From Tubulanus polymorphus (Eukaryota > Nemertea > Palaeonemertea > Tubulaniformes > Tubulanidae): a stretch of 64,000 bases of DNA. The notes beneath the pieces are model-generated. The model did not search any database, was not told the DNA's origin, and worked only from the letters and a program-made list of their open reading frames with translations. The translations under genes were made by a program, and so were the position numbers. Of this stretch, positions 27,601 through 55,711 are shown in pieces. The first letter of the stretch is position 1. The number at the start of each line of letters is the position of its first letter. Where the stretch lies: contig NC_134025.1 in assembly GCF_964204645.1 (NCBI RefSeq), positions 28,116,001 to 28,180,000 of the forward strand. The letters run 5' to 3'.

Positions 27601-30600
27601 CCACTGCAACTCGTCCTTCATACACTAGATTTAAAGTATAATTTTCATTTTCAAGCAGAACTGCACTTGGCAATTTTGGAAAGACGGACTTCTTTTTAAA
27701 GCAGATAAATAAGAAAAAGAATACATGGAATTTTTTCTGAAGATATTTACTTGTGCGTTTGTAAATAATGCACAGAATTCCTGCTTTAGCAAGTTCTTTG
27801 ATGCTAAACAGTACACTATTGTAGTTAGTTATATGTTGATAAACAGAACGTCAGAGCTTCATTGCAATCCAACTATCTTATGAAAGTACAATACAGTAAA
27901 CTGTATACCCATCACTTGCGTGCCCACGGAAAAGTGGAAAACCACCTTGAGTTTTTGTTGTCGGGAATACTGCTGCTTAGCTCTTGTTACATCTTAAGAC
28001 AATTAGCAGAAGGAAGCTAAAAGCGTTGTTGTAAAGAACTGGCTTGCACTTTAGTATACAGTAAATTTCCCTTCACATGTATGACCCAAAGTTAGTTTCT
28101 GAAAATCTGTGAATTGTGCGTATTTGCCTGTAGAAAGTTTAGAGAAATCAATAGCTGCATTGCTTCATATTGCTTTATGTAAGGTGTGCATGGCTGGTTT
28201 TTTCGACAACCTGCCTGCTTTATGTTTCCTTCAGTTGGTGTTCTATATTCTGATAGTCGACTTTATGCTTTTAACTGTAGCTACAATGCTGAGGTTTGGA
28301 TCTTCTGCCACTTCTAGTTTAAACTCGCTGCCAGATAACAGTCAGTTTTTCTGTTCTGGGTATAGCGATATAGATCCTCTATATGCGTCTATACCTGATG
28401 AACTGGCCCGTTCTAGACGTTCAGGTACTTCATTTACTAAAATCATATAAATCTATCCAATATATGAATGAATGCACATTGGCTTTGATCGCTGACGAAT
28501 CAAACTGAATGATTTCACAATTCGAGTTGGATATGATGATTCTCTTTTCTAGTATAGTAGTCTACTAACAATATACCAGTAAACGTTTTTCTTTCATATA
28601 CAGAATTATTGAAGAACTAAATAGATTGAATGTTAATCAATAAATCGCTTTGTATTGTTTTAATGCTTGGGTGCAAACTGTCTTTCATATTTCCATTTCA
28701 TTAGTATCATATCTAGCAGTGCAGCCATCAATGGTACTTAGAAATCTCTAACCCGCTTTCTTATCTCAGTTTTCATACACTCACGACCACATGGGCTTAC
28801 ACTTGTCTTGAAATTCGTTCGAATATCTATGATCTATTGCAGCAAATGAAATCGGTTCGCATGCTTTCAATGAAAGATATCATTTTCGCATGATAGAAAA
28901 TACGCAAGAGAATTCTATTTATGGTCGAAGATATTCTCTACAAATATCGCAATCATGTAGACTTTGTTATCGATAGCTCTAATGAATCGATTTTATTATT
29001 TTTAGTGAGTCCTTCAGTGAATAACGAGAAAGATACAGCGACCATAGTCAGAGCTACAGTTCATACGTTGGAACATCATCATCCACATGAATACCATGGA
29101 CAGACGCAACCTGCTCAATATCAATCTGCAACGTTACCTGCACAGCGGTTCTATACACCTCCACCAAGTGGCGCTGTGTTCAATAAATCAGAAAATCAAA
29201 ATATTCAGTATTCATCTGCAACATTACCCCCACAACGGTATCATACCCCTCCACCGGGTCAATTTCAACAAAATGAAACTCAACATTTTCAATATTCATC
29301 GTCAACTATGCCTCCTCAACGACAGCAAAGTCTGCCACCTATGGGAGGTCAGTTCCAACAAACAGATCCGAATATTCAATATTCATCTGTGCCTCAACAA
29401 CCGCAACGATATTATACACCGCCACCTAGTGGTCAAATTCAACAAACAGAAATTCAAAACCAAAATGTGCAATATACGTCGAAAACTTTACCACATCAGC
29501 GTTTCTACACACCGCCACCTAGTGGACAAATTCAGCAAGTTCCTCAACAGCAAGTACAGAATTTCCAGTACTCGAGCGCTACTTTGCCCGCTCAGAGAAC
29601 TCAACAGCATAGAGAAGAGTATAAAACTCAATTTCAATATTCAACAACGACAAATCCCCCAGCGCGTAGTATCAGTCAAACCTTACCACAGGATGTGATA
29701 CTCGTTGAATCACACCCAAATTTAAACAGTCAACAACAACAACAGAATCAACAATTTATTCAACAACAACAGGAGCAACAAAATTTGATTCAACAACAAC
29801 AGAATCAACAACATTTAATTCAACAACAACAGAATCAACAACATTTGATTCAACAACAACAGAATCAACAACATATGATTCAACAACAAAGTCAACTCCA
29901 GCAGCAGCAGCTGCAGCAGCAGCAACAACAGCAACACCAACAACAACAAAGTCAACAACATGTTTCCGGATCATACATACAAAGTGGATCAGCTACATTG
30001 CCACCACCAGCTCTCAGACGAGGTGAATCCATGTCATCGCAAACTCACGTTGAACAATCGAGCAGCGTGTCGCAAACTCTACCCCGAAGTCAACCAGACA
30101 TGTAAGTTCATTTAATGTATTCATTATAAGAATGGGTCCAGGTCCACTACCCTAGAAATTGCTCATTGTTTAGGTTTAATTGCCTAAATGATAAATTACC
30201 ATATTCCCATAACTCCCATAATTAGGTTATTTCTTTTCCATATCTCAGTGGTCTTGTGGATTTAATAATAACTAACTCATGTATTAACATTAGTCGAAAT
30301 GCTACAATGAAGAATTAAGGCTTTTCAACATCAGACAAAACTTTGTTGAAATTGTTTACCACTAGCAAAGCAATTAGTGGCAAAAACATTAGGCTATTAG
30401 GAAAACAATTAGTAGCAGCAAGGTGTATAAAGAGAACGTGCAGGGCACATGGGTGAATTAAGAGGTATGTTCATCCAACTATATCCACATGTCTCTATAA
30501 ATCTTCTGTGAGTCACATTGATGTGGGATTCTGACCTGGCCTTGAATATATAAAGATACAAGTCGATTATTTAATCAGTGCCAGTTTATAAGAGAACTCT

Positions 30601-50442: not shown

Positions 50443-51176
50443 CTACAAGATGCAAAGTCAAACATCACTGCTAAAAATGTTTAACTAGTATTTCATATAT
50501 ATGGTATGCACTTTTGGCATGCACAATTATCTGAAATATGCTTCATTCTTGTATTGAACCCTTTTAAAATAGGCTATAGAAATTCATTTCATATACATCG
50601 AAAAAAAATTACTTGAAAAAAGAAACTGTCAAAAAGACAAAATGTCAGAAAACGAACCAGGAAGTGTCAAAATTTATTTTTCAAACTAAAACTTCAGAAA
50701 GATTTAACAATACCTACATTCACCAGTTTAATTACAGACAGTCACATATATATATATGAAGTTCAATCTATCATTGTTCAGAAATAGATTAAACATGGAG
50801 TATCATAATTTTCATCGATAAATAAGTAAAAATCATCAGTTTTATTGGCCCTGACTTCATCAGCAGATCATCCATATTAGGAGTAAACAGTATACAATGT
50901 TAGTAAGTAAGGACAACTCCGACCGACCGGAGCCGAGCGGAAACCGAGCCGACCAGATACTAAAAACTATATGGACCTAATATATACTCAAAGAATTACA
51001 TAGTTTTATCAATACATAGTTTTATCAGGCCTACACGCCATTAAAATGTGGGCCTAGAATTAAGAAATGTTAGTGCGCGTTGTTTAACTGACTCTGCTGT
51101 ATGGGAAATAGTTGCCCTAACCCGGAAATAAAATATTTCGAGCTCATAAGCCAAGGTGAGAAAATTTCATCTAGGG
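50443..51176 (-). other. Dopey 5' flank and probable 5' UTR intron
   Basis: A minus-strand acceptor (CTTGTAG) ends at 50443, so a non-coding first exon must lie further right. I could not place it. The stretch holds a short GC-rich patch (CCGACCGACCGGAGCCGAGC, about 50923-50942) and one degenerate inverted copy of the ATGGCGTG motif near 51028. No gene on the + strand. Confidence 0.4.
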
Positions 51177-54100
51177 CAATCTTAAGACCTGCTGCATATG
51201 GCGTCACAAGCCCCGAGGCTTGTCACGCCATATTGGGGCCTGACACGCCATGTGGTAAACGTAAAATGAAAATCAAATCCTATGCATGAGATGAAACGTC
51301 GACTAAGTCTCGCGGGTTTTTCTTCCGAAGTTGAAATATTCGGTTGGATATTAATTTGTCTTAGATGATTAACAACGTATTATATATACATAATAAGAAC
51401 TACATATTACATCGCATTTACACTAAAATGAGTTTTACAGAATAGAAATTGATCGTTGTTTGTTAATCTAATGCAGTGTACACACATTTTGAAACACAAT
51501 TTAAACAATCATATATTTCGCCAGCATATGAAAAATACAAAAACATTACATATATATCTACTGAATGAGTTTTACAGGATAAAGATTTTAATTAACTATC
51601 TTACATTTCAATGAATCATTCATCTATTTCACATGATTTGTTGATCAATTAGTCTTAGAAGAACATGGATAATGTTAGAAAAACATATATGGTGAGCCAG
51701 GCTCCAATCTAGTGTGATCTGCAGTCATATGGCTCCTAAAATCGCTAAGCCTTCTACATGGCGTGTCAGGCCCCAAATGTTCTGCAGCCAATATGGCGTG
51801 TCAAGAGCCCCAAATTGTCTGCAGAATAGCTTCAATAATTGAAACATGGTTTGTCGAACGGTTTTCTATGGAAGCAATTAAATTATATCTTTAGTTTCAA
51901 TTAGTTATATATTGTTCATGATTTGATAATCACAAAGCAAATACTGCTAGAAAAACCGCGATTTGTCTTCTATATGGCGTGTCAAGCCCCGAATGTTCTG
52001 CAGCCAATATGGCGTGTCAGGCCCCGAATGGTCTGCAGAATAGCTTCAATTGAAACATGGCGTGAGAGGACCCGATCAGTTTTCCTATAATTGTCACTAA
52101 TTATCATAAATATTCAAAGATTTATCATTCTACATGGTTTGTCAATCATTTAGACTTAGAAAGAAAGCAAATATTGTTTCAAAAATAGCTCCTCAAATCA
52201 CGCTGTCTTCTACATGGCGTGTCAGGCCCCAAACGGTCTGCAGCCAATATGGCGTGTCAGTCCCCAAACGGTCTGCAGAATAGCTTCAATTGAGATATGG
52301 CGTGAGAGGACCCGAACGATTTTCCGTACAAACAAATGAATAATTGTCACTAATTATCATAAATATTCAAAGATTTATCATTCTACGTGGATTGTCAATC
52401 ATTTAGACTTAGAAAAAAAGGCAAATATTGTTTCAAAAAGCTCCTCAAATCACGCTGTCTTTCACATGGCGTGTCAGGCCCCAAATGTTCTGCAGTCAAT
52501 ATGGCGTGTCAGGCCCCAAACGGTCTGCAGAATAGCTTCAATTGAGACATGGCGTGAGAAGACCCGAACGATTTTCCGTACAAACAAATGAATAATTGTC
52601 ATTGATTATCATAAATATTCAAAGATTTATCATTCTACGTGGATTGTCAATCATTTAGACTCAAAACAAAAGGCAAATATTGTTTCAAAAAGCTCCTAAA
52701 ATCACGCTGTCTTCTACATGGCGTGTCAAGCCCCAAACGGTCTGCAGAATAACTTCAATTGAGACATGGCGTGAGAGGACCCGATCGATTTTCCGTACAA
52801 ACAAATGAATAATTGTCATTAATTATCGTAAATATTCAAAGATTTATCATTCTCCGTGGATTGTCAGTCATTTAGACTCAGAAAAAAAGGCAAATATTGT
52901 TTCAAAAATAGCTCCTAAAATCACGCTGTCTTTCACATGGCGTGTCAGGCCCCAAATGTTCTGCAGCCAATATGGCGTGTCAGGCCCCAAACGGTCTGCA
53001 GAATAGCTTCAATTGAGACATGGCGTGAGAAGACCCGAACGATTTTCCGTACAAATAAATGAATAATTGTCATTGATTATCATAAATATTCAAAGATTTA
53101 TCATTCTACGTGGATTGTCAATCATTTAGACTTAGAACAAAAGGCAAATATTGTTTCAAAAAGCTCCTAAAATCACGCTGTCTTCTACATGGCGTGTCAA
53201 GCCCCAAACGGTCTGCAGTCAATATGGCGTGTCAGGCCCCAAACGATTTTCCGTACAAACAAATGAATAATTGTCATTAATTATCATAAATATTCAAAGA
53301 TTTATCAGTTTGTCAATCATTTAGACTTAGAAAAAAGGCAAATATTGTTTCAAAAAGCTCCTCGAATCACGCTGTCTTCTACATGGCGTGTCAGGCCCCA
53401 AATGTTCTGCAGTCAATATGGCGTGTCAGGCCCCAAACGGTCTGCAGAATAGCTTCAATTGAGACATGGCGTGAGAAGACCCGAATGATTTTCCGTACAA
53501 ACTAATGAATAATTGTCATTAATTATCATAAATATTCAAAGATTTATCATTCTCCGTGGATTGTCAGTCATTTAGACTCAGAAAAAAGGCAAATATTGTT
53601 TCAAAAATAGCTCCTCAAATCACGCTGTCTTTCACATGGCGTGTCAGGCCCCAAATGTTCTGCAGCCAATATGGCGTGTCAGGCCCCAAACGGTCTGCAG
53701 AATAGCTTCAATTGAGACATGGCGTGAGAAGACCCGAACGATTTTCCGTATAAATAAATGAATAATTGTCATTGATTATCATAAATATTCAAAGATTTAT
53801 CATTCTACGTGGATTGTCAATCATTTAGACTCAGAACAAAAGGCAAATATTGTTTCAAAAAGCTCCTAAAATCACGCTGTCTTCTACATGGCGTGTCAAG
53901 CCCCAAACGGTCTGCAGTCAATATGGCGTGTCAGGCCCCAAACCATTTTCCGTACAAACAAATGAATAATTGTCATTAATTATCATAAATATTCAAAGAT
54001 TTATCAGTTTGTCAATCATTTAGACTTAGAAAAAAGGCAAATATTGTTTCAAAAAGCTCCTCGAATCACGCTGTCTTCTACATGGCGTGTCAGGCCCCAA

Positions 54101-55418
54101 ATGTTCTGCAGTCAATATGGCGTGTCAGGCCCCAAACGGTCTGCAGAATAGCTTCAATTGAGACATGGCGTGAGAAGACCCGAACGATTTTCCGTACAAA
54201 CAAATGAATAATTGTCATTGATTATCATAAATATTCAAAGATTTATCATTCTACGTGGATTGTCAATCATTTAGACTCAAAACAAAAGGCAAATATTGTT
54301 TCAAAAAGCTCCTAAAATCACGCTGTCTTCTACATGGCGTGTCAGGCCCCAAACGGTCTGCAGAATAGCTTCAATTGAGACATGGCGTGAGAAGACCCGA
54401 ACGATTTTTCCGTACAAACAAATGAATAATTGTCACTAATTGTCTTAAATGTTCAATGATTAATCCTTCTATATGATTTGTCAATTATTTAGTCTTAGAA
54501 AAAAAAGCAAATACTGTTACAAAAAGCTCCTAAAACCACGCTGTCTTCTACATGGCGTGTCAGGCCCCAAAGTGTTCTGCCGCCAATATGGCGTGAGAGT
54601 ACGCGATCAGTTTTCTATGGAAGCAATTAATTGTCACTAATCATATCTTTAGTTTCAATTAGTTATATATTGTTCATAATCATAAAGTCTAAGAAAAAAA
54701 AACAAATACTGCTAGAAAAATCGCGATTTGTCTTCTATATGGCGTGTCAGGCCCCAAACGGTCTACAGAATATAGCTTCAATTTACATGGCGTGAGAGGA
54801 CCCGATCAGTTTTCCGTAGAAATAAATGAAAAATTGTGACTGATTATCTTAAATTAGTACAATAATCATTAAGTCTTAGAAATAGGTTTATAAATCGTTG
54901 TTTCTATTTTGTTCATATGTAAAAATATACAAAATCGCTTATGTAAATGTAGCTGATGATCTCCTGATCGTCTCGCACCATAACGGAAACCTATAAAAAA
55001 CATATTCGAAGAATTTTACATAAAAATCTGTCGATATATATGCATCTGAATATAGTTATGAAGTAAAAACGGGATATAATTTTCTTTCAAAGTGGTTGCA
55101 CTGAACGGAATACTACAATATAACGTATAAGTACATATTATATTTAGACAATATTTAGTAAGTATATATTTAGACAATAAGTTAAGAAAAAATAGAAATT
55201 CATTACACATTGACATACCGGTACTTGAAATTATCTCATTCAGGTTTTACACGTCGTATCGGACTTAAAAACGTGGTCCGTTCGACGCGAACATATATCT
55301 TCGTTCCGCGTGAATTATATATAGTCTGCATTTTACTCGGGGCTTGTGACGCCATGTCAGATATGGCGTGACAAGCCCCGGGGCTTGTGACGCCATGTTC
55401 TGCTGATTCTTAAGATTG
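51177..55418. mobile_element. 4.2-kb satellite-bearing block with inverted ends
   Basis: Both ends carry CAATCTTAAGA (51177-51187) and its inverse (55408-55418), then, after about 10 diverged bases, the same stretch of about 37 bp containing ATGGCGTCACAAGCCCCG. Just inside each end sits a near-perfect palindrome (51196-51233 and about 55361-55398) built from the same ATGGCGTgACAAGCCCC sequence that seeds the central tandem array. At 51235-51251 there is an exact inverted copy of the array motif. No coding capacity and no clear target duplication were seen. Interpreted as a non-autonomous foldback or TIR element that has amplified its interior; an unrelated satellite with inverted edges is the alternative. 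Confidence 0.6.
51700..54860 (+). repeat. Tandem satellite array, ~252-bp unit with variants
   Basis: CACGCTGTC recurs at about 52199, 52451, 52703, 52922, 53174, 53368, 53621, 53873, 54067, 54319 and 54537 (the last as CCACGCTGTC), giving spacings of 252, 252, 219, 252, 194, 253, 252, 194, 252 and 218. The 252-bp unit holds two copies of a 33-bp subrepeat (ATGGCGTGTCAGGCCCCAAA then CGGTCTGCAG), a third diverged ATGGCGTGAGA copy, and an AT-rich spacer. The 219 form has lost one 33-bp subrepeat. The 194 form has lost 45 bp between similar CCCCAAACG and CCCGAACG sites plus 13 bp in the spacer. By eye there are about 35 ATGGCGTG copies, all in one orientation. Edge units are more diverged. Confidence 0.95.
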
Positions 55419-55711
55419 ACTTCACTCGAAAATTTGGGCTAGCCTTTACGCGTCGCCGTCGCTCTAACGTATCCCTGGTCTAGAGTAAGTATTGAATATA
55501 TATTTTAATAAATTGATATGTTCCATCATTTTATCCAGTGTTCAGGCTTAACGAGTTAGTATATATGTTTTTTATAAGGCAAACGGGAAAAGTCGAAGAC
55601 GAAACGAAGAATTCATTCATTTTTCGAGGAATAACCTACTGTCCTCTTGTGGATTAGTTCACCGTGAAGTAAGTTTTCATTCTGCTGACTGATATGTTTT
55701 AAGATAAGATC
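55419..55711 (+). promoter_or_regulatory. DUSP upstream region, likely promoter and 5' UTR
   Basis: The 290 bp before the DUSP start hold CpG-containing sequence (ACGCGTCGCCGTCGCTC, about 55449-55465) in an otherwise AT-rich area. No TATA box is clear. Placement of the start site is inference. Confidence 0.35.

Follow-up and report, generated by a model that had tools for sequence, protein, structure and literature searches.

A 4260-bp unit in the window, i.e. the whole 64-kb stretch analysed (G000:C1:28116001-28180000, from a genome of 267.8 Mb with genes of animal type), is in our judgement likely to be a non-autonomous member of a cut-and-paste DNA transposon family which was recently active and makes 8-bp target-site duplications (TSDs). 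The family is probably related to KDZ/Zisupton, and the copy would be mobilised in trans, in a model which combines an array of transposase-binding motifs with the capture of host DNA. Three features which are usually separate are found here together: a sequence motif common to the ends and an internal array, fast turnover of this array, and the duplication of host sequences, one whole gene among them. As one genome contains near-identical copies, unoccupied sites and the loci from which DNA was captured, the order of events is directly readable and a link between repeats and capture can be tested. The features of the window copy are the following (positions of the window; no strand is given for features without direction).

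51168-55427, plus strand: complete non-autonomous transposon copy of 4260 bp, with ends common to about 30 loci and a TSD
51160-51167: left 8-bp TSD GAAAATTT, the same 8 bases being found at 55428-55435
55428-55435: right 8-bp TSD GAAAATTT, the same 8 bases being found at 51160-51167
51168-51176, plus strand: left terminal 9 bp CATCTAGGG, present in nearly all copies and without inverted-repeat relation to the right end
55419-55427, plus strand: right terminal 9 bp ACTTCACTC
51177-51187, plus strand: left subterminal inverted repeat CAATCTTAAGA
55408-55418, minus strand: right subterminal inverted repeat TCTTAAGATTG, which is CAATCTTAAGA inverted
51198-51251: left end motif cluster, with a two-copy palindrome at 51198-51231 and a third, inverted copy at 51235-51251
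55339-55396: right end motif cluster, with three motif copies of alternating orientation forming palindromes
51758-54803, plus strand: tandem array with a unit length of about 194-252 bp and two to three motif copies per unit, all in one direction, including a 699-bp higher-order repeat

From the outside inwards the ends are composed of nine end-specific bases, which show no inverted-repeat relation to those of the opposite end, of CAATCTTAAGA, inverted between the ends, and of palindromes formed by three copies of a 17-bp motif. The inverted arms of the unit are short and asymmetric (about 40-80 bp), and include a 43-nt pair (51191-51233 with 55361-55403) which is 91% complementary. A preliminary description of this DNA had placed a single unit with inverted ends at 51177-55418; the single unit and its inverted ends are real, while its limits fell 9 bp short on each side, so that the unit is 18 bp longer in all.

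Genome searches with the two ends gave at least about 40 places for each end, and at no fewer than about 30 loci both ends were paired on one strand at a distance of 1.8-15 kb; the ends thus do travel together, which the preliminary description had made the test of its proposal. Both ends could be read in 27 copies; the TSD is exact over 8 bp in 22 of these, matches in 7 of 8 bases in one and in 6 of 8 in another, and is absent from three. When the joined flanks of the C4 copy were searched against the genome, a paralogous empty site with a single CAAATTTG was found at C10:5697445-5697570, and a one-sided empty site is present at C3:8605002. With inverted subterminal ends, recurrence throughout the genome, target duplications and an empty site, the transposable, TIR-type unit first proposed is borne out. 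Common termini, a target duplication of fixed length, an empty site and a transposase encoded between the same ends, which define a cut-and-paste DNA transposon, are all seen in this family. The C4 copy has the same length, 2767 bp, as a copy on C1 (C1:28291767), from which it differs at one position and by its TSD, so transposition must be very recent and the family recently active. At its ends the window copy shares 99.9% identity with copies on C2 and C10.

Some of the copies are longer. The interior of a 12-kb copy on C7 is made of nested repeats and a LINE, while a 12.9-kb copy on C1 and a 10.8-kb copy on C5 (L024/L025, L035) have about 9-10 kb of interior in common, where no long reading frame was found except for minisatellite frames; an 87% relative of this interior is located at C1:4567954-4574444. 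An additional 2 kb in the C6 copy was considered as host cargo and rejected, being a nested Penelope-like retroelement (L051:1880-3830) with reverse transcriptase and GIY-YIG, of which dozens of 98-99% identical copies exist.

The insertion site of the window copy has DOP1 (minus strand) on one side and, to its right, a dual-specificity phosphatase with a frame beginning about 285 bp away. CCGGAAR (ETS-type) sites were counted in the flanks of 24 copies (window 51100-51160 being one example): they number 6 in the 4.3 kb within 90 bp of the insertions versus 3 in 20.7 kb of distal flanks; promoter targeting is possible, this being an after-the-fact hint since the hypothesis was formed on the same data. 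Elsewhere in the window, positions 28897-30105 contain the frame of a glutamine-rich protein with a 60-bp coding tandem repeat (29734-29889).

The copy on C11 (L021; 10.6 kb) has the same ends, the TSD AAAACTTT and, enclosed on the minus strand, a multi-exon transposase gene which encodes zinc fingers, a 15-aa repeat and a SAP-like piece; a SWIM-like cluster and conserved acidic blocks were read by eye. Its array lies between the gene and the right end, upstream of the gene. The gene is 89-91% alike in relatives on C12, where gene and right end also have the same relative placement. Against Pfam, one C11 exon matches CxC4 (PF18717, "cysteine cluster associated with KDZ transposases") with an E value of 9e-6 and 26.0 bits, just under the cut-off of 26.9, and the relative L043 has a CxC cysteine-cluster match (E 4e-5). 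The KDZ core PF18758 matches other loci of the genome and not the C11 gene, in which the presumed catalytic parts sit in separate exons, so that a weak match to the split core may be missed. A profile comparison with KDZ on a small set of sequences was too thin to be informative, and the transposase inside these ends has no P/THAP match. The TSD length of the family, 8 bp, is the Zisupton value (PMC12730594). With CxC4 under its cut-off and PF18758 missed, we call the family KDZ-like rather than a proven member of the KDZ/Zisupton superfamily, to which it probably belongs.

A multi-exon zinc-finger transposase such as that of the C11 copy would move the window copy in trans, and we infer that a transposase of this type acts on it; a point against this is that the autonomous C11 copy and the short copies share only about 87% identity at their ends. 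The transposase may be linked to the HMGXB3-type gene family. Long open frames are also present in two related transposase families (L048:184-2049, C4:1325910; L049:658-2226, C11:9705281), with a Josephin-like cysteine-protease domain at the C terminus (Pfam E 2e-5 and 1.7e-9, respectively), an unusual fusion for a transposase. Beside the C12 transposase gene are found an intact 351-aa rhodopsin-type receptor frame (L047:165-1217) and receptor pieces; this receptor gene is not callable as cargo, as there is no left element end within 15 kb.

The 17-bp motif ATGGCGTGTCAGGCCCC, allowing up to 4 mismatches, occurs 37 times on the plus and 4 times on the minus strand of the window unit, about 35 of the plus copies being interior; shuffled sequences gave 0.04 copies, and the remainder of the 64-kb window has none at this threshold. 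The motif count thus agrees with the preliminary description, which had seen end palindromes built of a sequence repeated about 35 times in direct orientation inside. The four minus-strand copies are confined to the ends, at offsets (+47, +67, -89 and -48) which are fixed in nearly all sampled copies. Single-strand folding of both ends is far stronger than that of shuffles (z -3.8 and -5.8), with no such excess for a piece of the array (z +1.3). This arrangement suggests that the motif is the recognition site of the transposase and that the array is a transposase-binding array. The site would be present as palindromic pairs at the ends and would have been multiplied into the array, which in the autonomous copy lies upstream of the transposase gene. 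The array may instead be passive and play no part in transposition; slippage or unequal exchange would then have enlarged it, and the motif common to array and end would be a relic of its origin from the end. Copies nearly without array, with two plus-strand motif copies (C1 12.9-kb and C5), have also moved, the C5 copy with an exact TSD, and array-length variation follows no obvious trend, both of which favour passivity. We nevertheless hold it to be rather unlikely, as the motif occurs two to three times per unit and always in the same direction, the end motifs are retained in nearly all sampled copies of the family, and functional internal sites have a precedent in Galileo (cited in PMC4079207).

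Host DNA was found inside two copies. The C8 copy (9.4 kb, TSD CAGAAATT) has ends 99.8% like those of a short copy and an insert of 7.2 kb which replaces part of the array. The insert is composed of 2.0 kb from C6:7939632-7941621 and 5.2 kb from C6:6775521-6780775, sources on opposite strands 1.16 Mb apart to which it is 97-99% identical; four bases are shared at the first junction and two at the second, and a short filler is present at the third. It holds rhodopsin-type receptor gene pieces. The C8b unit (15 kb, outer TSD GAAAATCG) is composed, in this order, of a left end, the element without its last ~100 bp, 1.75 kb from C7, a 49-bp filler, 5.2 kb from C3 and the left end of a second element. 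The C7-derived segment is 94% identical to its source overall and 97% without gaps, and contains a complete COMMD8 frame of 190 aa (Pfam COMMD8), differing from C7 at 6 of 570 bases. The C3-derived segment is 98-99% identical and joined exactly to the left end of the second element; its source locus on C3 is itself an empty site. These two copies, and not the window copy, have the Pack-TIR feature of a host segment between the ends, one TSD and a parent elsewhere.

Both chimeric copies would be explained by repair of an excision gap during which the template was switched. This agrees with inserts from two sources, with microhomology at the junctions and with outer TSDs left intact, and we infer it as the capture route. 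Gap repair has likewise been inferred for the majority of animal Pack-TIRs present as single copies (PMC8277862). A tentative second choice is template switching at repeats at a replication fork, with later transposition of the finished product. Such switching leaves junctions of the same kind and has been proposed for the repeat-rich FB4 element (FoSTeST, PMC8277862), and matching outer TSDs are as expected if the whole unit transposed; we think it the less probable of the two, since only one copy each of C8 and C8b was found and single-copy cases are mainly attributed to gap filling in the same study.

The array itself varies in length, with spacer counts from 1 to 15 per copy; outer array units match between copies and middle units are duplicated. 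The C1c and C6b copies are 99.8% identical apart from one array block of 914 bp, and the window copy and C10b are 99.7% identical apart from 446 and 215 bp. Array length thus shifts by whole blocks between sister copies which are more than 99% identical, and the array turns over much faster than the ends. Unequal exchange, or slipped repair following excision, would account for these gains and losses of blocks.

The preliminary description had suggested a foldback or TIR element whose terminal sequence had given rise to a satellite, a plausible path from transposon to satellite. Its TIR half stands, given ends and TSDs. A foldback-type element of the P superfamily (Tetris/Galileo-like) whose terminal repeats turn into satellite would account for the sequence common to end and array, as in Tetris (a 37-bp stretch, PMC4079207), and for the variable array length; we judge it very unlikely, the arms being short and asymmetric instead of long terminal inverted arms, the array running in one direction outside any long terminal repeat, and the transposase inside the ends giving a KDZ-type cysteine-cluster match just under cut-off and no P/THAP match. 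No array was found outside an element: all matches listed to one array unit sit beside element ends, so no free satellite is seen and the step from transposon to satellite is unsupported.

For the chimeric inserts of C8 and C8b, an assembly artefact by wrongly joined contigs is highly improbable: the inserts are 94-99% and not 100% identical to their sources, the two cases are independent with intact outer TSDs, and C8b has the C3 flank joined exactly at the element end while C3 is an empty site. C8b as a macro-transposon, i.e. two elements moving together with the intervening DNA, was set aside as less likely, since the intervening segments come from two chromosomes, C3 is empty at the inner end and copying fits better.

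Returning to the transposon with a binding-site array and gap repair, we add, as a speculation more likely wrong than right, that self-multiplied binding sites may hamper faithful gap repair, so that an array favouring transposition would also make template switching frequent and couple its turnover to host-gene capture. If this is true, array growth, length turnover and the capture of COMMD8 and of receptor pieces are coupled in one active family, whose transposase would represent a branch outside the described KDZ core.

Among known systems, Zisupton/KDZ elements have target duplications of 8 bp, a value given for Zisupton (PMC12730594), and a multi-exon transposase gene (PMC9297572), both as found here, together with the CxC4 cysteine-cluster match, below cut-off in our case. 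The present family differs from them in having no PF18758 match, short asymmetric subterminal repeats, a large one-way array of the end motif and host cargo in two copies. Tetris of Drosophila virilis has internal tandem repeats of about 220 bp with end sequence in common, which have been proposed as extra transposase-binding sites (PMC4079207), and variable repeat number is likewise a property of Tetris/Galileo; in Tetris, however, the repeats are part of long inverted arms and have produced free satellite arrays, whereas here the one-way array is confined to the element. Animal Pack-TIRs resemble C8 and C8b in carrying host DNA between transposon ends, in junction microhomology and in being mostly single copies (PMC8277862). 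Those reported are mostly hAT and Tc/mariner, Zisupton being unmentioned in that paper, and differ from the inserts described here, which measure about 7 kb and combine two sources each, a whole gene being included in one of them. The CACTA element Jozin of Chenopodium also combines subterminal direct and inverted repeats, a satellite array near one end and gene-fragment capture (PMC8978399), but belongs to a plant superfamily with another transposase, and its satellite is a captured addition, while the array described here derives from the element's own end motif. The closest parallels are therefore Tetris/Galileo for internal repeats derived from the ends and Pack-TIRs for capture, both being combined here in a KDZ-like family.
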